From NCBI GenBank assembly GCA_963082975.1, contig OY720350.1:14292910-14356909 (forward strand): DNA of 64,000 nt. The letters are read 5' to 3'. Shown here piece after piece: positions 8,901-64,000 of this stretch. Position 1 is the stretch's first letter. Every line of letters starts with the position of its first letter. A program made the translations under genes and the position numbers. Below the pieces are notes generated by a model. The model was given only the letters and a program-made list of their open reading frames with translations, was not told the DNA's origin and ran no database searches. The DNA is from Labia minor (Eukaryota > Arthropoda > Insecta > Dermaptera > Spongiphoridae).

Positions 8901-11900
8901 GTTTTGAATGGGAAAATACAATGAAAAAATATTTGAATTTTGAAAAATAATTTACCCATCGGAAGAATCAAGTAACATTAGTGAGGCTTCACTATCAAGA
9001 TCACCACAATTGGAATCACAATCTGTTGTTTCTGGGGATAATGTAAAATTTCGACTCTGTCCCACCTGAGAGATAAAAAAATTTTGAAAATCTAGAAAGC
9101 TTAGTTTAAATAAAAATAAAAAAAATGTATTATAAACCTCGTTTTCTCCTAAATCATCAGTGGATCCAGTGTCTGCGCTTAAATCTAGAAAATGTCTCTC
9201 CACCGATTCAATCATTTCACTTCCTACTCCACTACGTGGACACTTTGACTCATCATCTTCATCTTCTGAAACTCCACCAGCACCATTTAAGGCTGAAGAA
9301 ATTTTAGAGAGTCGTAACCCTACATAGGCGTTTCCATTTGAAGTACTATTATTATTAGTACTTGGTCCTGATTGTCTTCGAAGCTCATAATCAAGTTCTT
9401 CGAATTCTTTTGTGCATGTTTCGCTAGGAGCAGGATTTTTAAAAAACTCTTCTAAAACCTGAAAAGGAAAAGGAAAAATACAATAAATGATATATTAAAA
9501 TTTAATTCAAATAATATACTAATTTTATTTAAAGAAATTACTTTTCTTGTTTCAGAAAATTCATATAAATAGTCAAAGGCGCTGGTGGTTGTATTTGTGT
9601 CTATTACAACTCCAGAAGTTGGGGATGGGCAACTATCCTCATCATCTGCATCTGCTGGTAATACTCGCTGAAATTAAAATATATATATATACATTATACT
9701 TTAATATATGTCAAGAGAGTATTTAAGTAAATATTATAAAATAATAAATGATTTAATTTAAATGAATTATAAATTAAAAAAATATTTAAAACAAAAATCA
9801 ATATTTAGTAAAATTAGATTAACCAATGAAATGTTGTTGTTCAAAGAAACCTTTGAAAATCTAGTTAATCGATTTATATATTAACTTCAATACATTTTCA
9901 CTCCTTTTTCATCATTTGAAATGTTCGGACAAGAAAATTTAATAAGTGATAATAGTGAACATACAATAGTATTACAAAAATATATAATAAAGATAAGTAT
10001 TAATAATTTTTTTAAGAAATGTAGATATATTAAAACATCATTTTTTAGATCAAATAGAAATAATCAACCTAAATATTTCATTTTGGGAATTGAATTTTTA
10101 TAAAATAAAGAAAAGATTTTATATGAATTAAATAATAAATGTTATATATTTCTATTTATTAATATATAAAAATATATATTAATTTTTAAGTGGTAACTTA
10201 AAACTGATTTAGGTATATAAATATATATTTTTTTAAAACTTTATAAGTTTATTGTTCCTATTTAAATTTGTTGGAAATTTTAGAATAAAAAAATAATTAA
10301 TTAATTATTGATTGTATATCGTATATATTAGTGTTCATAATTATTATGTTAGTGAAAAATAAATGGCAGAAGGAATATATTATAACTGATTTATATTTCA
10401 AATAATGAATTGATTCTCTTAATTTTTTTTTTTCTAAAATGAATTTGTTTCAAAATGTAAGTTAACCTGTGGAAATCCAGGCCTGGGTGGGTAGACACTT
10501 GGAGATGCGAGTAAGCTTTGGGCAGTGGGGAGCACAGGGGCAGATTCATTTCCATTAGTGGTGGCTCCATTCCCAGATCGTCCATATCTCCTAGGAGAAC
10601 CTTCATATTCGGCTATTGGTACTCCACCAATAAGTCGGGGTCCTTTATTTGTACTAGAATTGGAGCCGGAAGTTGGGTGTTGCGCGAGGCTACTGCCTAC
10701 GCGCCCCCCGGCACCCACACCGCCGTCCAGCTCAGAGCCGGAGGCGACCGCCTATGAAAGGTTTCGACAACATTCCTATTAGCCTCTGGTATGGTTTTGA
10801 AAAGATAATGAAATAAATCTTTCATTGGAATCACATAAAATAATGATAAATGAAGGTGAATAAAATAAATGAATATGCATGATATTAAAATGCTTTTATC
10901 AAATCAAATATGTTTACCCTTTTATTTATATAAATTATTATAAATAATTACTGATAATTTGTAAAATATTTAACAAAATAAAAACTGATTCTTCTGAATT
11001 GTTATTATTAAGAAAATTTGAAGTTTTCCAAATAAAAACGCCTAGAAATATGCAACCCCAATTTATTCCGAAAAAAATATAATTCTTTGAGGCGGGCTGA
11101 TTAATTCTTCAAAGGAATTAAACTAGAACAATATTATTAATACCTTAATGAGTGAAATATGTTTATTATCATGAATAAATTAATAAATAATCCTATCTGT
11201 TTGAAACATTTAAATTTTTTATTTATGTTCGTTTATTCTCTTAGTTTTATTTTTTTAGGAAAAACATAATATGAACATGAAATATAAATAATATTTGATA
11301 AAAAAATAATTAGAAGGAATTTATTTATAATGAGGGAATATATGAATAACATTTTATTATTAAGATAATAAAGAAAAAAAATTTCTATAAATGGGAAACA
11401 TACGAATATATTTAAAAAATACTGAGATAATTTTAAAAAAAATAATTTATCATAAAAATGAAGTATATTTGATTAATAATGCCAACACTAGAAATATTCT
11501 TATATGTACAAATAGGATAATAGGGCAAAGAAAAAATATAGCTCCTAAATTTATGCAACTATGTGGACTAATTCCATTACTGCACACTCTACAAATAGAT
11601 TTCGTTTTCAATTATAATTTTTTCTCATAGATATGTACATTTTTTTTTATTTTATATTGAGATTTTACTTGGAAAAAATCGATGGCTCCACGGCGGCATG
11701 CAGGTGATGGTGGTGAAGCTTCTAATGGCTCGTCGTCCAGAACAGGTAATCGCACTTTATTTAAATCAAGGCGAACCCCTCCCCGCCAATCTTCTCCAAT
11801 ATCATCAAAAACAACAACTTCCCGACCAGCTATGGTCGCCACATTTAAGGCTGGTGCTGTTCCGCTTCCGTGTCTCAGAGATAGAACCTCTGAAGCGAAA

Positions 11901-19267: not shown

Positions 19268-19487
19268 ATATCTCGCCAAAGATAGTATTGCGATCACGAA
19301 AATTTTCGATGTCGAGATTTTGATGTTTCTATACGTTTTGAAGGTTCCTGAATCATTTTGGCTGGTTTAATAAATATTATTTATTAATTTTCATTTATAA
19401 TTTAATTAATTGAATTAAATTAAACTATAATATATGTTATTTAATCCAATTCATATTGCGAGATAGTCGAGTGGAGACATTCCAGCT
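19268..19487 (+). mobile_element. HINE-like repeat, internally deleted copy (first of a head-on pair)
   Basis: It begins with tctcgccaaagatagtattg and ends with gcgagatagtcgagtggaga cattccagc, the two ends of the family, but joins them after only about 220 bp because the interior is missing. It points toward the next copy, 65 bp away and inverted. Confidence 0.8.
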
Positions 19488-19552: not shown

Positions 19553-19895
19553 AGCTGGAGTGTCTCCACTCGACTATCTCGCAATATGAATTGGATTAAA
19601 TAACATATATTATAGTTTAATTTAATTCAATTAATTAAATTATAAATTAAAATTAGTAAATAGTATTTATTAAACCAGCCAAAATGATTCAGGAACCTTC
19701 AAAACTTTTAAAAACATCATTATTAACATTTATTAATTTTAATTTATAATTCAATTAGTTAAATTAAATTAAAATTAATAAATAATATTTAATAAACCAG
19801 CGAAAATGATTCAGGAACCTTCAAAATGTATAAAAACATCAAAATCTCGACATCGAAAATTTTCGTGATCGCAATACTATCTCAGGCGAGATAGT
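19553..19895 (-). mobile_element. HINE-like repeat, inverted partner with internal duplication
   Basis: Reverse orientation. It starts agctggagtgtctccactcg and ends ctcaggcgagatagta. The segment ttaaaccagc...aaaatgattcaggaacc occurs twice inside it (near 19672 and 19794). With the copy at 19268-19487 it makes a palindrome of about 630 bp. Confidence 0.8.
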
Positions 19896-24337: not shown

Positions 24338-24545
24338 AGCTGGAGTGTCTCCACTCGACTATCTTGGATTAATTAATATATATTATATTTAAATTAAAAT
24401 TAATTAATTATAAACTATAAATTAAAATTAATAAATAATATTTATTAAATCAGCGCATGTTTGGCTCCTTGTTGATGGCACCACGTCACGTGTTGGAGCG
24501 TGATTTGCAGTGTTAAAAAATTAACACACACACACGAGATAGTAA
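24338..24545 (-). mobile_element. HINE-like repeat, internally deleted copy
   Basis: Starts agctggagtgtctccactcg and retains the aaatcagcgcatgtttggct and cacgtcacgtgttgg block, then jumps from ttaacacacacaca directly to cgagatagtaaaa. The middle third is lost. Confidence 0.75.
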
Positions 24546-25129: not shown

Positions 25130-25737
25130 ACTATCTCGCCAGAGATAGTATTGCGATCACGAAAATTTTCGATGTTGAGATTTTGATGTTTTTATACGTT
25201 TTGAAGGTTCCTGAATCATTTTCACTAAGGTTGAGAAAAATGTCTGTGTGTGTGTGTGTGTGTGTGTATGTGTGTATGTATGTAGACAAGATTACGCAAA
25301 AACGGTTTGAGCTAGAATGATGCAATTTGGTACATGAGCATTATTCAAAATTCATAGTTTTCTATCAACTTTTGAGAAATGTAGCTCAACCGGAAGAGGG
25401 TCATTACCTACAAAGTTTTGATTTTTTTTCCTCTAAAGTGACCGTAAAAATAAAGATATATGTTTGATAATTTTTCACATGATTAATAATTGTATAAAAC
25501 TGCTAAATATAGAATTTCAGCTTGATTGAATCGCTGAAAGTACCAGAATTAATTTTTTAACACTGCAAATCTCAAACGCGAACACGTGCCATGGTGCCAT
25601 CAATAAAAAACCAAACATGCGCTGGTTTAATATTTATTATTTATAATTTATAATTAATTAAATTTAATTTAAATATAATATATTATGTTATTTAATCCAA
25701 TTCAAATTGCGAGATAGTCGAGTGGAGACACTCCAGC
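25130..25737 (+). mobile_element. HINE-like repeat, full-length reference copy
   Basis: 608 bp. The left end actatctcgccagagatagt is a near-perfect palindrome. The right end gcgagatagtcgagtggaga then cactccagc carries a second hairpin (GAGTG/CACTC) and repeats gcgagatagt as the inverse of the left actatctcgc. Internally there is a TG/TATG microsatellite about 115 bp from the left end, a conserved cacgtg-containing block, and no coding frame. Flanks are T-runs on the left and A/T on the right, with no target-site duplication. Subterminal inverted repeats, a microsatellite, a terminal hairpin and T/T insertion resemble Helentron-associated (HINE/DINE-1-like) elements. Confidence 0.75.
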
Positions 25738-26765
25738 TAATTTATTTTAGTTATAAATGCAGAGTAGTCGCATTTCAAATAAATATTTTTATGTTAAGTT
25801 TTAAATTTAGGTAATATATAAGTTTATTAAAAACTAAAATTCCAGTTCGAAATAATTACAAATTGAAATTTTAAAAAGGTCAAATTGAAGACAAGAGAAA
25901 TGACAGGTTATAAAAATTACATGAGAAAAATTTAATTTAATTATAATGTGCCTTGAAATTCATAAATCATTTTTTTAAAGTTGCGTCTCTTTAAAGATAT
26001 TATAAGAAATATACATAATATGAAGCATCAAGGTAAAATTATTATAGCTATTAACTAATCTAAGTCATAAATCTCATATAAATTTAATTTTAAATTGCAA
26101 GTAAAAGATATTTTTTATCCTTGGACTCTGTTTTTTTTTTTAAAAAATCTCTTTTTAGATTAATTCTTTTAATTACCCAGACTTTTATTATTAGTGACTT
26201 AGTCAAATAGCAATGAATAAATAAAAAGTTTTTTTTTTTATTTTAATTTTTATATAATATACTGTTTATTTTAAAGAATAAATGAATTTGATTACATGAA
26301 AAATATACCAGTCTAAATTTATCATATTAATGCCTTTGGATATATATAAAATTCGAAATTTACTTGTCTTTGAATAATATTAAATTATTTGATTCGATTA
26401 TACCTTTAAGGATTTAAAAATCAACCATGAACTTATAAAATTTCCAAACCCTTTTTTGGAATGAACCGTGACTAGTTCTTTTGATTTCTAAAAAGAAAAA
26501 AAAAAGAATGGCCTCAATTTAGTTATTTTAACCTTTTCTCAAAGATAATAGAAAAATATTAAAGATATCAGAAAAATAATAAATAAAAATTATATCTTAT
26601 TCTTTCGATTTAATTTAATTTAAAATATATTACTTATATATATATAAGATTTAAGAAATGTTTTTATTTTAAATATTTATTTTTAATTAATATTATTTAT
26701 AATAGTGAAGCGATTAAGAAATATACTATTTATTTTATATTTTCTTAAAAAGACATAAATTAGAA

Positions 26766-30738: not shown

Positions 30739-31326
30739 ACTATCTAGCCAGAAAATTTTCGAAAACGAGATTTTGATGTTTTTGTACGTTTTGAAGGTTC
30801 TTGAATCATTTTTACTACTATTGAGAATTGTGTGTATATATATATATATGTGTGTGTGTATGTATGTAGTTAAGATTACGAAAAAACGGTTTGAGGTAGA
30901 ATCATGAAATTTGTAACATTGGCATTCTTCAAAATTTGTAGTTTTCTATCAACTTTTGAGAATTGTAGCTCAACCGGATGAGGGTCATTACCTACAACGT
31001 TTTGATTTTTTTTCCTCTAAAGTGCCCGTAAAAATAAAGATATATGTTTGATAATTTTTCACATGATTAAAAATTGTATAAAACTGCTATATATAGAATT
31101 TCATTTTGATTGAATCGCTGAAAGTACCAGAATTAATTTTTTAACACTGCAAATCTCACGCGCCAACACGTGACATGGTGTCATCAACAAAGAGCCAAAC
31201 ATGCGCTGTTTTAATAAATATTATTTATTAATTAATAATTTATAATTAATTAAATTTAATTTAAATATAATATATTTTAATTAATCCAATTCAAATTGCG
31301 AGATAGTCGAGTGGAGACACTCCAGC
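30739..31326 (+). mobile_element. HINE-like repeat, near full length
   Basis: Same ends and interior as the copy at 25130, with a damaged left palindrome (actatctagccag, then a deletion of the gagatagt half). The microsatellite is (TA)n/(TG)n. Right flank tattac. Confidence 0.8.
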
Positions 31327-32211
31327 TTATTACTTTGAAGAAAATATCCATTGGAATTGTTTTTTTCAAGTTAATTTTAATATAATTTATAATTGTTGTA
31401 TTTAATATATGTATTTGATGAAATTAATTTTATTTTAATATTATTATTATAAGAAGGGAGATGCAGGAATATGAATACTACTTGTACAAGCTGAAATGGA
31501 TGCCTATAGCTACTTTATTTACATTAGCTAAATGTTAAAATATAAGTAAAATTATATAAATATATATATATATATATATATGTTTGTTTTGATTTTAAAA
31601 TAGAACTGACTTGAACTTTGAAAAGAAAAATTTGGAATGATAATCAAATTCAAATGAGTAAAATTTCACACGCAAGTAATAATCCGTATGGAGAATATAC
31701 TTATATATATAAAATATGAACTTTAGGGTAGATTCCTCACAGCAAGGTCAAAAAGCGAATCCCAAAATAAACCATCCATCAATTTAAAAACAAAATGTCA
31801 CTAAGAACGCATAAGATCCTAAGAATTCATTTTTATATGAATGATTCAAAATGAAAATCCCCTTAGGAGATGGTATTATTTGTATCATCATCACGATTTT
31901 TACAAACCTTGTAAAGTTAGAATTACAATGATAGATATTTTGATTAGAGGGTAGATTGCAGTTTGTGACCAGAGGGCTTTCCGAAGAGCCTTATGATTTA
32001 TGAGAGCCTTTAATTATAATGAAAATGTCAAATTTTCATACAAAACAGAATAACCTTCTTCATAAACGGATATACTAATAAACTTCTTGTCTTTTTGATG
32101 GAGGCCCAATATATATATATATAGATATATAAGTAAATGGTAAAAAATGTTAAACACATCGAGGTGTCGTGATTTGGCTGGCATCTTCATGGGGGAGGGG
32201 GGCTCAATTCC

Positions 32212-32323: not shown

Positions 32324-35300
32324 GTGAGTGCGATTTTGTGATAATTATTTAGGATTTGTATTTGGTGAATAAATAGGTTTGGTTAATAAAAAAAAAAACG
32401 TTAAAGAAGATTTTTGAAAAACTGATAAGTATTTGTGTTGAAAACTCATTTTTTTTAATTACAAGTAAATAGGTTATTAAATTATTGAAATTTTAATATA
32501 GTCATAATGAAAAAATTGCATTTATTTTTTCAATTGATGAATTATTAACCAACTTTTTATTTATTAATTATAAGAACAAAAATGTAGATTTAATTGATTT
32601 CCTTTTTTTACCATCTTGCTAGAGATAGGATTGAAAACACGAAAATTTTCGATGTCGAGATTTTGATGTTTTTATAGGTTTTGAAGGCTCATGAATCATT
32701 TTTAATAAGGTTGATAAAAATGTCTGTCTGTGTGTGTATGTATGTATGTATGTGTGTATGTATGTAGACAAGATTACGCAAAAACGGTTTGAGCTAGAAT
32801 TATGAAATTTGATATACAGGAATTATTCAAAATTTGTAGTTTTCTATCAACTTTTGAGAAATGTAGCTCAACCGGAAGAGGGTCATTACCTACAACGTTT
32901 TGATTTTTTTTCCTCTAAAGTGTCCGTAAAAATAAAGATATATGTTTGATAATTTTTCACATGATTAAAAATTGTATAAAACTGCTATATATAGAATTTC
33001 AGCTTGATTAAATGGCTGAAAGTAAGAGAATTAATTTTTTAACACTGCAATTCAAGCGCCAGCACGTGACGTGGTGCCATCAACAAAGAGCCAAACATGC
33101 GCTGGTTTAATAAATATTATTTATTAATTTTAATTTATAATTAATTAAATTTAATTTAAATATAATATATTATGTTATTTAATCCAATTCAAACTGCGAG
33201 ATAGTTGAGTGGAGACACTCCAGCTTATTTTGTTTGTTTGTTTGATATAATAATGTAATAACTGTTACTTTCTTAATATTATATAGTTTATTTGAGAATT
33301 AAAAAAATAAAAGAAAACAGACAAATTTGCACAAGCAAAAAGTTCAAACGTTTACACTTTACTTTAATCAAAAAAACTTTTCATATCACCTTCGCCCATA
33401 AGTCTTTCTCACTTAAAATAACTTTTTGATTTTATATTTCGCTAAATAAATTAATCAACCAATTTAAATATTGATCATTAATTATTTATTGATTACTTTT
33501 TAATAATGTTTCATTAATATATAAGTAATATCTAAAATATAATTTGATTGAAAAATACATAAAATCAAGTAACATAAAATATTATTATTATTATTATTAT
33601 TATTGAATCATACATGTATATATAAACAAATATTTTAGAGTATTTTCATCTAAAGGCGACATTAAAGGTTAAAAAGATGCCCCGAAAATCGATCAAGGGT
33701 GGTTTTGTTCATGAATTCCGGGATAATCTGCTCACATTTATTTCAAAACACAGCCACCCATTTTTAATTGAATCTTAAGATAGCAATCAACGCTTAATAT
33801 TTTTTCTTTAGAAAAAACAAAACAAGAATTTCATATTATGTACTCTAATCTAATACTTGCATATTTTTTTCTTTTTAAAATTAATTGAATTGTTAATGAT
33901 TAAACTTTTTAGTTCAATTTATACAATCTTAATATTCTATTATAACAGAATAGAATTTATCATTTTATATTTTATACCAATCCCTCATCTAGTTATATGA
34001 AATACTTACTTGTTTTTTTACTATCTGGCCAAAGATAGTATTCTGATCACGAAAATTTTCGATGTCGAGATTTTGATGTTTTTATACGTTTTGAAGGCTC
34101 ATGAATCATTTTTAATAAGGTTGATAAAAATGTCTGTCTGTGTGTGTATGTATGTATGTATGTATGTGTGTATGTATGTAGACAAGATTACGCAAAAACG
34201 ATTTGAGCTAGAATAATGAAATTTGGTATACGGAAATTATTCAAAATTCGTAGTTTTCTATCAACTTTTGAGAAATGTAGCTCATCCGGAAGTGGATCCT
34301 TACCTATCACGTTTTGATTTTTTTACCTCTAAAGTGACCGTAAAAATAAAAAAATCTGGAGTGTCTCCACTCGACTAATAGAAAACTATGAATTTTGATT
34401 AATGCCCATGTACCAAATTTCATCATTCTAGCTCAAACCGTTTTTGCGTAATCTTGGTTACATACAAACACACACACACAGAGCTAGAGAGAGAGAGACA
34501 GACATTTTTCTCAACCTTAGTAAAAATGATTCAGGAACCTTCAAAACGTATAAAAACATCAAAATCTCAACATCGAAAATTTTCTGGCGAGATAGTAAAT
34601 ATATGTTTGATAGTTTTACACATGATTAAAAATTTTATAAAACTGCTATATATAGAATTTCAGCGTCAGCACGTGACGTGGTGCCATCAATAAAGAGCCA
34701 AACATGCGCTGGTTTAATAAATATTATTTATTAATTTTAATTTATAATTAATTAAATTTAATTTAAATATAATATATGTTAATTAATGCAATTTAAATTT
34801 GCGAGATAGTCGAGTGGAGACACTCCAGCTTATTTTAATAAATGTTTAATTTTAAATTTATAAATTATAAAAATGGTTACTATACTTAATTGCATTCTTA
34901 AACATTAATATGAAAAAAATATGAACTAAAATATTAGCATTTAAACATTTTTTTTTTCTTTTTTTAAATTTATTCTATTATTTTTACATAATATATTTAT
35001 AAATAAATAAATAAATAAATACTTATATATATATATATATATGAGTAAATCAAAATAAAATATTTTTTTGATTTTTGGTAAAATCTTTGTTTTTAATTTT
35101 TTTAGTGTCAATATTTAGAAAATTTTTCGGGAATACCAGGCAAAGCTGGTGTAGATTTTCCCGTTTATGTTGAACCACCCTCAAGTGGGTTCCGCTGTGA
35201 TTCTCAACCAGTCCAAGGCTACTTTGCCGATCCTACTAGCAGGTGCCAGGTACTGTATTGATTTTTTTTATTTTATTTCAAATTTCCAAGATTTATGCAA

Positions 35301-38300: not shown

Positions 38301-41300
38301 AAAGGTTAATAGCTAAGAAATTAATCTTTTATTATTTTTCACTGTAATATACTTATATCAAAGTACGTATCAAAATTTAAAAGAATTTTTATTAAATTTA
38401 CATATTATCAATCAAATCCAAAATGGTTGATTATATTAGAAGAAATAGTGTTACTTGTTAATGAAGTGTTTTAGTGTGGTATGTATCTTAGTATATACAT
38501 ATATATATGAATTATAACTCTATGAAGAAAGATAACGGCATAGAAATCAAATGAAAACTAAAAGCGCCCAACGTTTTTCGTTGAATATGAAACAATTCAT
38601 TCATAAACTTTGTCAACCTTATAGAAAAATTATTTTATTCTGTTTAGTTCATTGGAAAAACGTTATTTTATAAAAATTTTGTATGTTTATATTATTTTAT
38701 TGTTTTTAGTGCAATTTTAATTTGATAAATTTATTTAATATAACAAGAGAATTAGAAAAGATGAAGTTATACGAAAATTTACAATTGATTAAAACAAAAA
38801 AATATATTAATCCTCTAAAATTGATTTTATGTATTTATGTTAAGTAAATGTTATTATTGAATAATAATTATTATATTATATTTAGAAATAAATAATTTTT
38901 ATTAATATGAAATTTTATAATTGTATATTTTATAAATATATATATTGCCTTGTTAAAAAGGTTAAGTATTTTATTGTTTTGTTTCCTTTCTCTCGGGGAT
39001 ATATAAAAAAAATCTTTTCTCTATGCCATTTAAGGGGAATAACCCTCTTCATTCGATTGAAATATCTATAAAAATTTTCAAAAGTCTATCTCAATCTAAA
39101 GATGATGAAAAATCGATTACAATTTATCAAAAAAGCGAACAGACAGACAGAGACAGACACCAAGTGAAGTTGAGAAAAACGTTATAATAATTATAAAAAA
39201 AGCATATATATATAATTCCTATATTATTATTTTATTTTATAAAAATTTAATATTAATTATAAAATAGTATAATACTACTAATAATTATCTGAAATTAATT
39301 GAGAGTGGAAGTTAAGTACAAACAAGATTCTTTGGCATTTTAGGAAAATAATTTTATTGATTATTATCCGACAAGGTATGGAAACTTTTGGAGTTTAACT
39401 AAGCCAAATGACGAGAAGAAAAGAGATGGTTAATGGAATTAATCTTTTATGTTGGTTTAGTATAAGATCCAGGTGGTGAACATCAAAGTGTGTGTGTGTG
39501 TGTGTGTATGAAAGATAGAGAGAGTAACAAAGACTATTGATAAGTAATTTTAATTAAGTAATTAATTAATTCGAGAGAATTTTCAGGCTTTCAATGTATG
39601 CCATCGTGGAAAAAATGTAGGGACATTTTTATGCCCGAATGGTACCGTGTTCCAACAACGGGACTTGGGTTGTCATTGGTGGTACGACGTTGATTGCTCT
39701 CAAGCGCAGAGTTACTATGTCCCTTCGAATCAGCGTGTCGAACAGGAGGCCAGGGAGGTCGATCTTCGTAATCACGCACTGCATATGCAAAGGTGAGGTG
39801 ATGAGCTGGAATCTGCATGCCAATTCACAATTCATAATTAACACAACCATTAATATTACTTTAACGATATTATTTTAAGCACCGGGATGAGTAGGTAATC
39901 ATTTTACCTGGAGGCAAATAAAATATTTCATTCGAACTCAATAAAAATGAATTCATGTTTTAAATGTCTTCAATCCGTTATGTTAATTTTTTTTAATGTA
40001 TAATTTGCACTCAATTAATTTTATTTCCTGTTCTATAAAAATAATTAGTTATCAAATAAATCGTAGTTAATTATTATTATAATTTTTACTGAAAAAAAAA
40101 CAAAATTCTATAAAAATTATAAAAACTTTTATTTATTTTTTAATTCATATAATTAAAAAAAATAAATTTAATATAATTTATAATAAAATTTGTAATAAAT
40201 TATTTTATGAAGTGAGAAAGTGTGAAGGGAAAAAACTCAAGTTCTTTATGCCACTGTGCCGCGGCACTTTAACTTTAGTGTGCCGCGAGATTATGAGCCT
40301 CATAAACATTTCCGACTTTATTTTTAAATTTTTTCAATTTGGTTTTTTAAAAAAAAGGTAAACCGTTTTTGGGACCACTTTTTACTATCTCGCCAGAGAT
40401 AGTATTGCAATCACGAAAATTTTCGATGTTGAGATTTTGATGTTTTTATACGTTTTGAAGGTTCCTGAATCATTTTCACTAAGGTTGAGAAAAATGTGTA
40501 TGTGTGTATGTATGTAACCAAGATTGCGCAAAAACGGTTTGAGCTAGAATGATGAAATTTGGTACATGGGCATTATTCAAAATTCGTAGTTTTCTATCAA
40601 CTTTTGAGAAATGTAGCTCAACCGGAAGAGGGTCATTACCTACAACGATTTGATTTTTTTTCTTCTAAAGTGACCGTAAAAATAAAGATAGAGGTTTGAT
40701 AATTTTTCGCATGATTAATAATTGTATAAAATGGTTGAAATTGGTTTTAATACCTTCGCGCCCCCTTACAACAGTCTTGCGCCCTCCAGGGGGGCGCGCC
40801 CCACAGGTTGGAAAACGCTGCCTTAATGTACATTCTGGAATATCCTTCCAGAGAAAAAAAAGATAATTTCAAAAAAAAAAAAAAAAAAATTAAAGACTCG
40901 AACCCAAAACAACGCAACATCGAAAATCTAAAGACGCATAGTGAAAATTATCACAATCAAGCAGCGACGCAAAGCGAGATTATGGTGTAATGAAAATATT
41001 TTTGAAACATATATTTATTTATTTGTTTGTTTTATTTAATTGTAATTATCACATAATTTAAATACTTATACATTTTTCAATATTACGGTAAATATAGATT
41101 TAAAATATCAGCATGTTTTACTAAAAATATTTTTAAATTTTATAGAGATAACTAGCTATCTATTCTCAAACGTATGCTTAGTAACCTATATATGATACAC
41201 CTAAATGGAAACAAAAAAGCTTTTTATATAAAGGGTTTTCCTCATCAGTGGATTGACCGACATTATCTGTCGGCACGTGGACTTCATTGTCACTCACCCC

Positions 41301-49514: not shown

Positions 49515-50124
49515 AGCTGGAGTGAGTGTCTCGACTAGATAATCTCGCAATTTGAATTGGATTAAAGATTATAATATATTATATTTAAATTAAATTTAAT
49601 TAATTATAAATTAAAATTAAAAAATAATATTTATTAAACCAGCGCATGTTTGGCTCTTTGTTGATGGCACCATGGCACGTGTTGGCGCGTGAGATTTGCA
49701 GTGTTAAAAAGTTAATTCTGGTACTTTCAGCGATTCAATCAAGCTGAAATTCTATATATATATAGCAGTTTTATACAATTATTAATCATGTGAAAAATTA
49801 TCAAACATATATCTTTATTTTTACGATCACTTTATAGGAAAAAAATCAAAACGTTGTAGGTAATGACCCTCTTCCGGTTGAGCTAGATTTCTCAAAAGTT
49901 GATAGAAAACTACGAATTTTGAATAATGCCCATGCACCAAATTTCAAGATTCTAGCTCAAACCGTTTTTGCGTCATCTTGTCTACATACATACACGCATA
50001 CACACACACATACATTTTTTTCAACCTTAGTGAAAATGATTCAGTAACCTTCAAAACGTATAAAAACATCAAAATCTCAACATCGAAAATTTTCGCGATC
50101 GCAATACTTTCTCTGGCAAGATAG
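49515..50124 (-). mobile_element. HINE-like repeat, full length, reverse
   Basis: Starts agctggagtgagtgtctcga and ends atactttctctggcaagatag. The conserved block gcaccatggcacgtgttggc differs by one base from other copies at the first half of the palindromic region. Confidence 0.8.
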
Positions 50125-50635: not shown

Positions 50636-51204
50636 ACTATCTAGCCAGATGTCGAGATTTTGATGTTTTTATACGTTTTGAAGGTTCCTGAATCATTTTT
50701 CACTAAGGTTGAGAAAAATGTCAGTCTCTCTGTGTGTGTGTGTATGTGTGTATGTATGTAGACAAGATTACGCAAAAAAAGGTTTGAGCTAGAATCATGA
50801 AATTATTCAAAATTTGTATTTTTCTATCAACTTTTGAGAAATGTAGCTCAACCGGAAGAGGGTTATTACCTACCACGTTTTGATTTTTTTTCCTCTTAAG
50901 TGACCGTAAAAATAAAGATATATGTTTGATAGCTTTTCACTTGATTAATAATTGTATAAAACTGCTATATATAGAATTTCAGCTTGATTGAATTGCTGAA
51001 AGTACCAGAATTAACTTTTTAACACTGCAAATCTCACGCGCCAACACGTGACGTGGTGCCATCAACAAAGAGCCAAATATGCGCTGGTTTAATAAATAAT
51101 TATTTATTAATTTTAGTTTATAATTTATAATTAATTAAATTTAATTTAAATATAATATAAATTTAAATTCAAATTGCGTGATAGTCGAGTGGAGACACTC
51201 CAGC
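50636..51204 (+). mobile_element. HINE-like repeat, near full length
   Basis: The left palindrome is missing most of its loop and the following cgaaaattttcg (actatctagccagatgtcgag). The rest is intact, with right end gagtggagacactccagc. It lies about 500 bp from the inverted copy at 49515-50124. Confidence 0.8.
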
Positions 51205-51725
51205 TTATTTTATTATAGATTGGAGAATAATAATTGAATGTTGTGTGCAATCCAAAATAATTTTTTTTACGGAACAACGATAGGAAGGGAAGGTATTGTT
51301 TTCTTTTTAGTTATTATATACTTAATATATTATATATTAAGTGTACATAAAATTTTATTTTTATTAAATGTAATTTTTAGTATAATTTAGTATTTTTTTA
51401 CTTTAATGTAAATAAAAATTATTTTTTAATATCAATAAAAATTTTGTGATTCTTTTTTCAATGTATTCTCTGATTTAAATATATTATTTGAATATTGATG
51501 TTCATACTAATTATAATAATAGTAATTAGTCTGTAACGGCTTGTTCGTAAAATATGTAAAGCCTTTATTTCAAATTAGCATGTCAAATTTAGAGAAAATC
51601 GATTAGATCCAATATGTATAGGTAAATAAGTATAACATATAGGGTATCTGATAATTATTCACAGCATTCCGCATGGAATGTCAAGAGCATTGCTATTACC
51701 TGTGCCATTTTCAAGGGAGTGGATA

Positions 51726-54402: not shown

Positions 54403-55911
54403 TCTCTGCCTTTGGTCAACTTATTTTATATATAATATATACTGCATATATGTATAAGAATTTATATTATCTTACCCTAAAATTATTAAGAAAATTAATG
54501 TTCGAATTAAATTTTTAATAATAGACTTTATATTGTAAAAATTTACCTACTTTATTAATCAAAATTTAATTTTTTAATTGTTTTATTTTCCATTAGGAAA
54601 TTTATTTTATTGTTAATTTATTTTAAAAAATTAATCCAAAACTCATATTATATACAATTCCTTAATAGAAAAAAATACTATTTATTTATTGAATTTAAAA
54701 TTTAATATAACTATAATTTATTAATATTGCATTAAAAAAAAAACAAAAAAAATTAATTAACTTTAATTTTTATTTTCAAAGACAAAAGAATATTGCAATA
54801 TTTTTTTTTAAAATGGCTTGCAAATAAGAAGACATATTAAAAAAAAAACAAGTAAAGATAGATATATATATATAGACAATAGCCACTTAATCTCCTATTT
54901 ATATTCCTAATAATGATAATGACTAGCCTGGAGTGGGGGAGGGGCGAAAAAATTTAAGTGAAAATATTAAAAGATAGTAAACATTCAAAAAGTAAGTCTT
55001 ATTTTGGCAGTTAACATTAGTTAAAAATAATTTAAAAACAAAATCCAAATGTGTGTTCATAATAGTGTTCTATAAATTTAATTATAAACAGAGGGGAGGG
55101 GGATGAAAATTATTGATTAGAGATGAAATAGTATTCTATTTATTTTGTTAAACTACTTATAGAATATATATATTAATATATAAATGTGAGAAAAAAATGA
55201 ATTATTTTAGAAAATAAATAAATGAATCAATGAAATATTATTTTGAAAAAAAATAACATATTTACCAAATTATCAAAATTTAAAATTTTGAGATTGTTTA
55301 TTTTTTTAAAAAGTAAAGCATAAATTTGTAATTAATTTTAAATAAATATTAAATCATTAGCCGTTCTATATTAACTTTAATCAAATCGTTGTAATAATTT
55401 TTTTTCTTTTTTTTCAATATTTAATAATAACAAAACAAAATTTTAAAAAAATGAAGTTAGTTACAAATTAATAATTTAGACAATTTGTAATTAGCTTCAA
55501 GCTAGTACAAATTAATAATTTAGACCATAGGTTCTTAAACTTATGTACTCCACGGACCCCCACTTGAAAAAATTTTTTTTGACGGACCCCCATCACAACT
55601 TTAGGTACTTTACGTCATTTTATTAATTAATTTCTGGCTTACGATCTCATAAGAACAAGGATATATGATGAATATTTCTAACAGTGATTGGTGAATAACG
55701 ATTTTTTTGCATATTGTAGAACACATTTTATTAGAAATTATAATATTGAAGAAAGAAAATACAAACATTGTCATAGCAACAAATCTCACAAATTATAATG
55801 GGTACTTACATTAAATTCATATAAATATTTTATAATTTTTTTCAGAAAATATTAAATAAGAAATATTTTAAAAAATAACTGCATCTATCTCATTAAATAT
55901 AACTTACATAT

Positions 55912-57771
55912 TTAATGAGATGTATGCAGTTGTTTTCTTGAAACAAGAATCTCAATATCTGGCTTAATATTGGAAACTTTTAATCTAAGATCCGGCTCTA
56001 CATTTAATTTGTTTCTATATTTAGACTTAATATAAAATAGTACCGAAAAAGCTTGTTCGCATAAATATGTTGTGCAGAATGGAATCAAGTGTTGAAGTGC
56101 TTTATTTGCAAGCGCAGGATAATCTGACCTGAGAAGTAACCAAAAGTTGCTCAATTCAGTTTTGTTAAATTTTAGTTTATAAGTTGTATCACATGATAAT
56201 TCCACGAGAATATCTTGTTCAGGTGCAGATAAATGTTTAGTATTTGTAATTTCCATATTAAATGGATCTCTGATCCAGTTATTGCAAGGATCAGGAGTAG
56301 AAAAATACTTCCTGAAGTTGCTTTTCAAAGTAATTAAATGTTCAACAAATAATTGACGCGTTTGATTAAGCAATTTTTCACTGGAGCTTTCTATGAAATC
56401 ATTGAGAGTTGGAAAAGACTCATATACACCGTTCTGGATGCGTTTCGACCACAAGTCGATTTTTTTAATCATTGCTTCTATTTTATCTTCAACTTTAAAT
56501 ATATTTACAACAGTACCTTGCAGGCTCAAATTAAGTTCGTTCAATTTTGTAAAAATATCAGTCAAGTAAGCCACCTTAGCTAACCAGATAAAATCATTGA
56601 AACATTCGGTCAGTTCAAAATGCGCATCTATTAAAAACAATCGTATTTCATCTCGAAGCTCAAAAAGGCGAATGAGTACTTTCCCGCGGGACAACCAACG
56701 TACATCTGTATGTAATAATAAATGTGTATGTTGACTACCCATTTCCTCACACAAAATTTTAAAAACTCTGGAATTAAGTGGACGAGCCTTAATGAAATTG
56801 ACAATTTTAACTACTTCGTCTAATGTTCTTTTCAAATCTGGTGACATATTTTTGGCTGCTAATGATTCTCTGTGAATGCAGCAATGATTCCAAACAACCT
56901 GAGGCGCAACATTTTTAATAAGAGCAATCAATCCAGTTCTTGTACCTGACATTGCACGAGCACCATCAGTGCAAATTCCAACACATTTTGGCCACTCTAT
57001 TTCATTTTCGGTTATAAAATTATTCAAACTGTTAAATATGTCATTAGCTGTCGTTCGTGAAGGTAGTGAATCACAAAACAATACATCTTCTTGTATTTGA
57101 TTTTCAAACTCATATCTAATGAAAGCTAACAAATTGGCATTATTAGTGACATCAGTACTTTCATCCAATTGTAATGAGTAATAGTGACTTTTGCGCACTC
57201 TCGATATTAATTCTTCTTTTATATTACATGACATGTCTTCAATCCTATTCTTAACCGTATCATTTGATAATGAAATCAAATTTATATCGTTTGCTGCTTT
57301 AGTTCCTAACATTATATTTGTAATTACTTTTGTAGCAGGAAGAATTAATTGCTCTGCTATATTATGCGGCTTTCCTGCTTTAGCAATAAGTAGAGCTACT
57401 TCATATGATGCCATTACTGCTTTCTTACTCATACCACCAGATCCCGTCTTTACCATCAATTTCTGACTTGAATTAAGTTCTTCTTTTTTCATTTTAAAAA
57501 ATTCGATAGACTTACTAACATGCTCGCTGTGCTTTGTTTGTAAATGACGTCTGAGATTAGCAGGTTTCATACTTTCATTGGATAAACTTTCCTGACATAG
57601 AACGCAGACTGGTCTTTCCACATCATTGTTGCAAATATAAGTAAATCCAAATGATAAATAATCATCCGAATATTTTCTAGTTTTGCGTTTCTTGGTAGAG
57701 TTTGCTGTTGATGCCTCATCATCTGATTCTTTCCGTTTCTGTGTTGAACCAGTTTGTAGCCAACGATCCAT
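55912..57771 (-). CDS. hAT-family transposase (BED zinc finger, ZBED5/SCAND3-like)
   Basis: 619 residues, the usual length for this group. Residues 56-81 form a BED finger (C56-x2-C59-x16-H76-x4-H81). The RNase-H-like core shows D203 in LQLDESTD, D269 in CTDGARAM, the hAT C-x2-H motif at 297-300 (CCIH), W359 in HTDVRWLSRG, and E572 in CEQAFSVLFYIKSKYRN within the C-terminal dimerisation region. All expected catalytic residues appear present. The start at MDRWLQTGS follows a short open stretch beginning MLINYSIK in another frame; this Met gives the canonical N-terminus with a Lys/Arg-rich segment (KKRKTRK, about 27-33) that may be a nuclear signal. It would act in the nucleus on the element's own ends. 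A domesticated host gene is unlikely because it lies within inverted repeats and a target-site duplication. Confidence 0.95.
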   Translation of the reverse strand: MDRWLQTGSTQKRKESDDEASTANSTKKRKTRKYSDDYLSFGFTYICNNDVERPVCVLCQESLSNESMKPANLRRHLQTKHSEHVSKSIEFFKMKKEELNSSQKLMVKTGSGGMSKKAVMASYEVALLIAKAGKPHNIAEQLILPATKVITNIMLGTKAANDINLISLSNDTVKNRIEDMSCNIKEELISRVRKSHYYSLQLDESTDVTNNANLLAFIRYEFENQIQEDVLFCDSLPSRTTANDIFNSLNNFITENEIEWPKCVGICTDGARAMSGTRTGLIALIKNVAPQVVWNHCCIHRESLAAKNMSPDLKRTLDEVVKIVNFIKARPLNSRVFKILCEEMGSQHTHLLLHTDVRWLSRGKVLIRLFELRDEIRLFLIDAHFELTECFNDFIWLAKVAYLTDIFTKLNELNLSLQGTVVNIFKVEDKIEAMIKKIDLWSKRIQNGVYESFPTLNDFIESSSEKLLNQTRQLFVEHLITLKSNFRKYFSTPDPCNNWIRDPFNMEITNTKHLSAPEQDILVELSCDTTYKLKFNKTELSNFWLLLRSDYPALANKALQHLIPFCTTYLCEQAFSVLFYIKSKYRNKLNVEPDLRLKVSNIKPDIEILVSRKQLHTSH

Positions 57772-57990
57772 TTTATGGAGTAATTTATTAACATTGAACT
57801 ACAATAATATAAATATAATATAAATATAACGAATTATTATTTACTAGCTATGTTTTAATATGATTTTAAATGAATGTTTTAATATCATTTTAAATGAATG
57901 TTTTAAATCATTTTAATAAATGTTTTAAATCATTTTAAATAAATGATTTAATATCATTTTAAATGAATATTAATTTATATAATAAATATA

Positions 57991-58080
57991 TTTCGTAATT
58001 TGATTCTAAAATATTATTAATTTCGTAATTTGATTCTAAAATATTATTAATTTCGTAATTTGATTCTAAAATATTATTAA
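57991..58080. repeat. Three perfect 30-bp tandem repeats in the hAT element
   Basis: The unit begins tttcgtaatttgattctaaa and repeats exactly at 57991, 58021 and 58051. It lies upstream of the transposase start, where hAT subterminal repeats that bind transposase often occur. Confidence 0.9.
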
Positions 58081-58266
58081 AATAAATATTTTTTATTCAT
58101 AAAACTAACTTATACTTACTCTCAAAAACAGCCTTTCTGGGAAATTGCAAAATGTGTTTAGTGTTTTTATAAAATAATGATCATGCAAATTACACTAAAA
58201 ATTAAAAAAAATTATTAGCTATAATAAACTATTATTAGCTATAATTTAATTATAATTAATTAAATT

Positions 58267-58376
58267 AATAAAAATAATTTAAAGATACAACTCGTTGAGA
58301 AATGAACTTATAATTAACATTAATAAAAATAATTTAAAGATACAACTCGTTGAGAAATGAACTTATAATTAACATT
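58267..58376. repeat. Two perfect 55-bp tandem repeats in the hAT element
   Basis: The unit begins aataaaaataatttaaagat and contains caactcgttgagaaatgaac; copies at 58267-58321 and 58322-58376 are identical. Confidence 0.9.
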
Positions 58377-59790
58377 TGCTTTAAAACTGTTTAAAACCCC
58401 AGAGTGGACGCTGACAATTTGGGTTTTTCCGGGTAAGACTGTCCCCTCCCCTGGTTTTCCCCAATAACAAAGTGAAAGAAAATTCCCTTATATGCCTCCC
58501 CTTCCGAGCCCCTAAGAGGGGTTATTTTAAAGGAACAATCGAAAAATGATTTTAAATGAATGAATGGATGAAAATTCAAATTTTATATATAGTTTTTTAT
58601 ATATGTTTATTTATTCACAAAAAATTAATTGACATAATTATCAATTTAATAAAATAAAATAGTATTATTAATAGTATTAAATTATAGCCGTAATTCTCTA
58701 GGAGGATATAGTTACACAATGAACTTTAAATATTTATATATGTATATATTTTTACGATGATTTTTTTCCGAGGACCGCGGACCCCCAGTAAAGGCTTCGC
58801 GGACCCCCAGGGGTCCGCGGACCACAGTTTAAGAACCACTGATTTAGACAATTTGTAACTAACTTCATAATGTTACAGACATCACATACATACGACGAAA
58901 ATTATATATATATATATTGATTTTATTCAGGGTTTATAAACAAAAACAAAAATATACAGAAATTAGTGGTATGTATTTTTGAAAGAATATTTGAAATGAC
59001 ATATCCCTAATATAAAATTAATGATGTAACATATAATAAGTATATGACTCACTTAATAATTTAATAATAAGGATATAGAAATTATAATAATATTAATTAA
59101 AATAATATTAAATGAAAAGATTTATTTATTTAGCAATAGATACTAGCCTTGATAATATATATTATATTAACATTTAATTATAATTTATTTTATAGTATTA
59201 TTATTATTATTTTTTTAATTAAAATTAGCAGTTTCTATTTTCTGTGATGTTTGCCTATTTCTAAATTATACAAATGTAATTGAATATGATTCAAGGGAAT
59301 TGTTTCACTCGATTAAATAATAATCTATATCAGATGAGTATAAGATAAATAAATAAAAGATGAAAAAAAAGAGAGGATCCTTGACATTTTTATAAAAAGA
59401 CGTTCGATTGAATTTAAAGTTCTATACTTGATGACTATTTCTATTTATCAAAGTCTTTTGTACTAATTCAAGATTTTGAAACTATTATGGTAATGTTCTT
59501 GGATGCTCATCAATATCATCGAACAATAAATATGAAATGTCAGCTAACCTTGTCATTGAACCGTTTAATTTATTAGAGAAGAACGAAAGCAAATAATTAT
59601 GAAATCGATACGAATGACCATTAATAAATATAAACAGTACACATGACTTTCACTTAACGTTTCATATATTTAATAATGAACACTAAAATTCTTTTTTATT
59701 TCTAAATGAAAAACAAAAAACAAAAAAAGAAAAGAAAAAGATTTTTATTACCAATTGAACCATTTTTTTAGGAATGAACAAAAAAAAAAA

Positions 59791-60371
59791 TCTGGAGTGA
59801 CTCCACTCGACTATCTCGCAATTTGAATTGGATTAATTAACATGTATTAATTTAAATTAATTTAAATTAATTAAATTATAAATTAAAATTAATAAATAAC
59901 ATTTATTAAACCAGCGCATGTTTGGCTCTTTGTTGATGGCGTAAGATTTGCAGTGTTAAAAAATTAATTCTGGTACTTTCAGCGATTCAATCAACCTGAA
60001 ATTCTATATATAGCAGTTTTATACAATTATTAATCGTGTGAAAAATTATCAAACATATATCTTTATTTTTACGGTCACTTTAGAAGAAAAAAAAACAAAA
60101 CGTTGTAGGTAATGACCCTCTTCCGGTTGAGCTACATTTCTCAAAAGTTGTTAGAAAACTATGAATTTTGAATGATGCCCATATACAAAATTTCATTGTT
60201 CTAGTTCAAACCGTTTTTGCGTAATCTTGGTTACATAGACACACACACACACACATACATTTTTCTCAACCTTAGTGAAAATGATTCAGGAACCTTCAAA
60301 ACGTATAAAAACATCAAAATCTCAACATCGAAAATTTTCGTGATTGCAATACTATCTCTGGGGAGATAGTA
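59791..60371 (-). mobile_element. HINE-like repeat, full length, reverse
   Basis: Ends tctggagtgactccactcga and actatctctggggagatagt, so both terminal palindromes are recognisable. It has a specific 20-odd-base deletion removing the cacgtg motif (gttgatggc|gtaagatttg). Confidence 0.8.
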
Positions 60372-63511: not shown

Positions 63512-64000
63512 ACTATCTCGCCAAATTTTCGATGTTGAGATTTTGATGTTTTTATACGTTTTGAAGGTTCCTGAATCATTTTCACTAAGGTTGAGAAAAA
63601 TGTGTGTGTGGACAAGATTACCCAAAAAAGGTTTGAGCTAGAATCGTGAAATTTGGTACACGGGAATTATTCAAAATTCGTAGTTTTCTATCAACTTTTG
63701 AGAAATGTAGCTCAACCGGAAGAGGGTCATTACCTACAATGTTTTCATTTTTTTCCTCTAAACTGACCGTAAAAATAAAGATATATGTTTGATAGTTTTT
63801 CACATGATTAAAAATTTGATAAAACTGCTATATATAGAATTTCAGCTTGATTAAATCGCTGAAAGTACCGGTATTAATTTTTTAACACTGCAAATCTCAC
63901 GCGCCAACACGTGACGAGGTGACATCAACAAGGAGCCAAACATGCGCTGATTTAATAAATATTATTTATTAATTTTAATTTATAATTAATTAAAATTAAT
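63512..64000 (+). mobile_element. HINE-like repeat, runs off the window
   Basis: Left end actatctcgcc followed directly by aaattttcgatgttgag (second half of the palindrome deleted), with a short TG microsatellite. The interior continues through aaacatgcgctgatttaata to the window edge; the right terminus is not visible. Confidence 0.8.

Follow-up and report, generated by a model that had tools for sequence, protein, structure and literature searches.

Palindromic subterminal inverted repeats are described for mite HINEs, Culex Helentrons and some Drosophila families in the available extracts of Thomas et al. 2014 (PMC4067079). In the same extracts the Rep of Helentrons has the form RGSPHxH and that of Helitrons the form RGLPHxH, some Helentrons carry an extra RPA frame, and the number of terminal Ts varies among the mite HINEs. 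The palindromic left end of the repeats described here, which the sequence-only reading had called unusual, has therefore already been published for HINEs. The window is the whole stretch of 64,000 bases that was analysed (G000:C9:14292910-14356909). Its repeats are interpreted as HINEs (probability roughly 92%): they would have arisen by internal deletion from a Helentron with an endonuclease, code for nothing themselves and depend on the protein of that element to be moved in trans. What makes this reading the best fit is that the repeats insert into T-rich sites with no fixed duplication and have the same ends as a 12.2-kb element, which combines both ends with a coding frame. They probably form a family that is new but of known type, and a probable partner of theirs has been identified.

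The repeat family in the window and the genome

BLAST of the copy at 25130, combined with alignment, places all 13 listed sites of the window in a single repeat family, as the sequence-only reading had claimed, some of the copies being fragments. The copies differ by variable internal and terminal deletions. They cover approximately 5,970 of the 64,000 bases (9.3%), close to the earlier estimate of about 10%, and the absence of a coding frame was likewise confirmed, all frames in the copies being shorter than 150 aa. The copies and the parts of the reference copy are:

19268..19486, plus strand: HINE copy with a large internal deletion, both ends kept (BLAST and alignment)
19553..19895, minus strand: HINE copy that keeps both ends, with an internal deletion and a tandem duplication of 122 bp
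24338..24543, minus strand: HINE copy of which a left stub (ACTATCTCG), a TG run and the 3' part (~190 bp) remain
25130..25740, plus strand: full-length HINE, the reference copy, 98.8% identical to the consensus
25130-25149, plus strand: palindromic left end of the reference copy
25245..25283, plus strand: TG/TATG microsatellite within the reference element
25709..25718, plus strand: subterminal inverted repeat on the right, GCGAGATAGT, matching the left end ACTATCTCGC inverted
25720..25733, plus strand: right hairpin GAGTGGAGACACTC
30739..31329, plus strand: HINE copy whose left palindrome lost its right arm by deletion
32610..33227, plus strand: full-length HINE copy
34020..34832, plus strand: HINE copy interrupted by a nested inverse copy
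34355..34596, minus strand: short HINE nested in reverse inside 34020-34832, with a left palindrome that lost its right arm by deletion; the flanking sequence represents an empty site
40384..40731, plus strand: HINE copy, truncated at the 3' end
49515..50124, minus strand: HINE copy near full length, with a rearranged right hairpin
50636..51205, plus strand: HINE copy whose left palindrome lost its right arm by deletion
59791..60370, minus strand: HINE copy near full length
63512..64000, plus strand: HINE copy that runs off the end of the window and whose left palindrome lost its right arm by deletion

A consensus was built from 30 genomic copies (L001-L030), of which L001 is the 25130 copy itself. 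The aligned stretches of the window copies are 79-99% identical to this consensus, so the family has older and younger members. Among the best 40 of 2652 candidates scored, the genome (604 Mb in 71 contigs) contains at least 39 other full-length copies with 97-99% identity, together with at least 6 partial matches; these figures are a lower bound for the copy number, and the copies, being the best matches, are uninformative about average age. No relatives were found in viral contigs and phages.

The palindromic left end, the right hairpin and the microsatellite had been attributed to all copies, which holds for most of them (counted by eye on the alignments). Eight of the 13 copies have the left palindrome complete with its two arms; the copies at 30739, 34355, 50636 and 63512 have no right arm, and 24338 is a stub. 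The right hairpin, sometimes altered, occurs in 11 of 13, the exceptions being the 3'-truncated copy at 40384 and the copy at 63512 that is cut by the window end. The copies at 19268, 19553 and 24338 have no microsatellite or only a stub of it. Folded as DNA, the left palindrome reaches -5.7 kcal/mol (z -8.5), and the right 29 bases fold weakly (z -1.6). The short 3' palindrome is found with 0 or 1 mismatch at 9 sites and in altered forms in other copies. At five of the 13 left ends (24543, 30739, 34596, 50636 and 63512) the deletion starts in or beside the palindrome loop and removes the right arm, with differing right breakpoints. These losses reflect either hairpin-induced slippage or a dispensable right arm.

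The window also contains a candidate hAT transposon (55526-58841) with an open 619-aa frame at 55912-57771 on the minus strand, which matches Dimer_Tnp_hAT at E 8.5e-4, below the cut-off. CATAGGTTCTTA and CAGTGGTTCTTA are its possible ends, accompanied by a duplication of 8 bases, ATTTAGAC; they were chosen among 10 candidates, all others being AT-rich.

Termini and insertion sites

The left end of the element is ACTATCTCGCC, preceded by T at positions -1 and -2 in 30 of 30 genomic copies and by T at positions -5 to -3 in 27-28 of 30. On the right, CAGC is followed in these copies by T, then by T (27 copies) or A (3 copies), and then by A, T, T. From the bases conserved after CAGC, ...CAGCTTA or ...CAGCTAA is therefore the most likely end, and the element is flanked by Ts left and right. 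Between the two flanks of the 30 genomic copies, exact matches over 2-10 bases are not more common than in shuffled flanks. The T-run flanks without target-site duplication reported by the sequence-only reading are thus upheld in 30 of 30 genomic copies as far as a fixed-length duplication is concerned, and a short duplication made of Ts only would be compatible with the data.

Empty sites were obtained from two nested insertions, namely L024 inside an older copy and the window copy 34355-34596 inside 34020-34832, each compared with the element consensus. A third candidate, L010, was rejected, as the element matched on one flank only. In this comparison with empty sites, which the sequence-only reading had proposed, the two nested sites carry 5 and 6 extra T-rich bases, which leaves the exact termini ambiguous, and no duplicated block besides these. 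The extra bases agree with the variable number of terminal Ts in the mite HINEs, and a T-only duplication would look alike.

A 12.2-kb Helentron as the likely autonomous partner

The likely autonomous partner is located in the same genome at G000:C1:47862612-47874777 (minus strand, 12,166 bp). It is the longer relative with both ends and a Rep/helicase that the sequence-only reading had proposed to look for, and as a Rep/helicase/endonuclease element it supports the earlier suggestion of HINEs mobilised by a Helentron. The left end reads TTTTT/ACTATCTCGCCAGAGATAGT and continues as HINE 1-526 at 92% identity, with one 204-bp tandem duplication, before the element's own sequence begins. The right end is formed by 38 bases identical to the end of the HINE (571-608), approximately 1.24 kb after a 2181-aa frame. 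No HINE sequence stands directly before these 38 bases, and a weak AT-rich match to 521-573 (81%) is found about 155 bases upstream of them. The 3' end of the partner is CTAA, which also fits the CTRR of canonical Helitrons.

The 2181-aa frame lies between the HINE-like ends, with its Rep match at C1:47868109. It has matches to DUF6570, Helitron_like_N, PIF1, UvrD_C_2 and Exo_endo_phos_2 and contains the motifs HxH (HEH), YxxKY (YVLKY) and Walker A (GSAGVGKS). Rep HUH and PIF1 helicase are joined in one protein, as in Helentrons. The Rep carries the Helentron signature RGSPHxH (VEFQMRGSPHEH), and the form with a preceding F/Y-x-R that is diagnostic of Helentron Rep is present as well (DSYERVEFQMRGSPHEH). 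An AP-type endonuclease C-terminal to the helicase, another Helentron character, is indicated by weak matches, both below the gathering score (Pfam E 0.0012 in a longer piece; PF14529 E 3e-4 in the C-terminal 470 aa). A PDB search with this part matched no solved endonuclease structure. Its N, E, GDFN, D and H residues, which we assign to endonuclease motifs, are conserved in a 37%-identical Helentron-like frame. Two small frames of 148 and 150 aa follow downstream of the 2181-aa frame. The genome has 104 Helitron_like_N matches; the best 30 other Rep loci comprise 23 with RGLPHxH, 4 with RGSPHxH (L056-L059) and 3 without a readable motif, and the partner's own match is weaker than those of these 30 loci.

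The 3' part of the frame occurs in the genome in three long copies and one 45-base fragment. A second insertion on C1 (~44.69 Mb) shares the right end at 99.2% over 249 bases and diverges just past CAGCTAATTTTA. This copy has no left end and is preceded by an older Helentron. On C60, HINE 1-526 (94%) passes directly into roughly 100 bases of the Helentron, the joined stretch being 97% identical, in a different flank. The third long copy, on C10, has no right end within the 1.6 kb examined, and its homology stops after 130 bases. Each junction is thus seen in two insertions, the left one also on C60 and the right one also at 44.69 Mb on C1, and both junctions in one of them; both ends and the open frame occur together in one copy. 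The older Helentron beside the 44.69-Mb copy (L086) appears to begin with a palindrome of its own, different and imperfect (ACTTTCCC...GGGAAGT), which follows a few Ts. The microsatellite block is suggested to be an inherited 5' part of these Helentrons and not an acquisition of the HINEs, because L086 keeps the TG/TATG microsatellite beside 71% identity to HINE 116-283. A 237-bp piece of the partner (L083:1-237, minus strand; F 9764-10000) is a high-copy repeat, judged from 3484 candidates for the query containing it, of which 40 were scored. It also occurs near three Rep loci of the RGLPHxH form (L034, L049 and L052), at 2.7-7.4 kb upstream.

The density of HINEs makes chance proximity to other genes common, as is the case at the Helitron locus L039, and the partner might in principle consist of HINE fragments that happen to lie on either side of an unrelated Rep gene. 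Such a coincidence is considered very unlikely, since both junctions recur in independent insertions and the right end shares only the last 38 bases without a gap, the two Helentron copies being 99% identical across them. The Helentron sequence at the left junction (F 9635-9758) is moreover joined directly to the coding frame in the 44.69-Mb copy, without the 3.6 kb that intervene in the first copy. That the repeats are MITE-like deletion derivatives of a DDE transposon, cut and pasted by way of inverted terminal repeats, would agree with their high copy number and with the short inverted repeats (ACTATCTCGC and GCGAGATAGT) near both ends. These inverted repeats are, however, asymmetric, with a hairpin outside the right one, the flank matches do not exceed those of shuffled flanks, and the element with both ends encodes a Rep/helicase, so this origin is regarded as extremely improbable. 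The refuting observation named by the sequence-only reading, a DDE-encoding relative with target duplications, did not turn up among the elements analysed.

Derivation from a canonical Helitron, for example from the family of 1652-aa Helitrons in the same genome, has equally little credit. That family is young, seven loci (L037-L043) being 99.9-100% identical, and its L039 copy has a HINE left end on one side and a right end on the other; the CTAA 3' end of the partner and of 3 of 30 HINEs formally fits CTRR, so the 3' end alone is not decisive. The right end near L039 belongs, however, to an old HINE fragment according to BLAST, homology in another copy stops 236 bases inside the supposed left end, and neither end occurs in the stretches compared at the predicted distance from seven other copies, although several of these stretches fall within the element or past it. 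These Helitrons (L037-L045) were accordingly rejected as partner. The Rep of the 1652-aa family reads RGLPHMH. The canonical combination of 5' TC, 3' CTRR and A-T insertion is not found in the HINEs, 27 of 30 of which end in CTTA, and all 30 begin as T-run/ACTATC, not A/TC. Helitron2 elements have a Rep/helicase without endonuclease, and the partner has a weak endonuclease match.

The groups of L033 (2039-aa) and L059 (1785-aa) were also considered as partner and show no shared ends in 4.5-7 kb on each side; a single 12-base end match with one mismatch lies beside L033. No endonuclease was detected in the pieces of these frames that were scanned, which for L059 begin after the first 265 aa. 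A further set of nearly identical loci, L056-L059 (C2, C6 and C9), has the Helentron-type motif YWWRVEFQNRGSPHIH. The RGLPHxH Helitrons L037-L043 (C9, C10, C1, C2 and C5) maintain their identity over 3.5 kb, which is a very recent burst; their frames measure 1537-1652 aa and contain STPR repeats (PF21107, scanned in L039). At G000:C5:46740114-46771612, Helitron_like_N fragments follow each other at steps of 9,817 bp and ~5,688 bp, which suggests a tandem array of Helitron units.

The partner frame continues for approximately 150 aa past the endonuclease. This part is a borderline match to Peptidase_C48 (E 5e-4; 20.4 bits, with the cut-off at 20.7), and a PDB search aligns it with SENP8 (2bkq) at E 0.0034. 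The alignment places its H-W, D-S and QQNxYDCG onto the SENP8 sequence, at positions that are presumably the catalytic residues of SENP8; one of the three Helentron copies has N for the D of D-S. Among the best 90 of 1070 candidates, the C48 part (325-470 of the 470-aa C-terminus) matched only the three copies of the partner Helentron. The frame at C1:55797689 (L088), with a Rep match 8 kb upstream, is 37% identical in the endonuclease part and then continues with an OTU-like GDGNCMYRA (PF02338 E 0.0014, below the cut-off). AlphaFold, run on the C-terminal 470 aa as a single sequence, gave a pLDDT of 31, too low to be informative. A literature search, with subscription papers and Repbase reports outside its scope, returned no paper joining a Helentron with Ulp1; for Helitrons together with such proteases it led to a paper on Ginger1 and a review of Teratorn. 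As judged from the sequence, it is slightly favoured that the driving Helentron ends in a Ulp1/SENP8-like cysteine protease where another Helentron-like frame has OTU, a de-ubiquitinating activity having possibly been swapped for a de-SUMO/NEDD8-type one, as in Ginger1 independently. Ginger1 transposons are described with OTU or Ulp1 C-terminal domains in the extracts of PMC2836005.

Proposed mobilisation and comparison with described elements

In the proposed mechanism, Rep would nick at the left boundary T/ACTATC and the Pif1 helicase would peel off a single strand, for which the right hairpin may mark the stop. The strand would then be joined between the Ts of a T-rich target, with or without help of the endonuclease. 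In one eukaryotic genome, a non-autonomous family of many copies is matched with its probable source, whose frame is open, and this pair makes trans-mobilisation by the rolling-circle machinery of Helentrons directly testable. The Ulp1-like domain, if confirmed, would provide the OTU-to-Ulp1 alternative in a rolling-circle transposon, like that of Ginger1, and would strengthen the idea of ubiquitin-like signalling as a general transposon target.

The closest described system is HINE-Mo/Helentron-Mo of Metaseiulus occidentalis, compared here by description and not by sequence. According to the extracts of PMC4067079 it has the same palindromic subterminal inverted repeats, 3' hairpin and microsatellites, the same T-rich insertion without duplication and with a variable number of Ts, and its HINEs are likewise deletion derivatives of a Rep/helicase/endonuclease element. 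It differs in that the left repeat of the present family begins right after the T-run, and in the C-terminal Ulp1/SENP8-like match of the partner, which is not described in those extracts. DINE-1/INE-1 of Drosophila shares the subterminal repeats, the microsatellite, the 3' stem-loop and the TT preference, whereas palindromic subterminal repeats were not observed there (extracts of PMC4067079, again compared by description). Ginger1 shows the same OTU-or-Ulp1 alternative at the C-terminus of its transposition protein but is a DDE/integrase-type transposon (extracts of PMC2836005), in contrast to the rolling-circle element of this genome.
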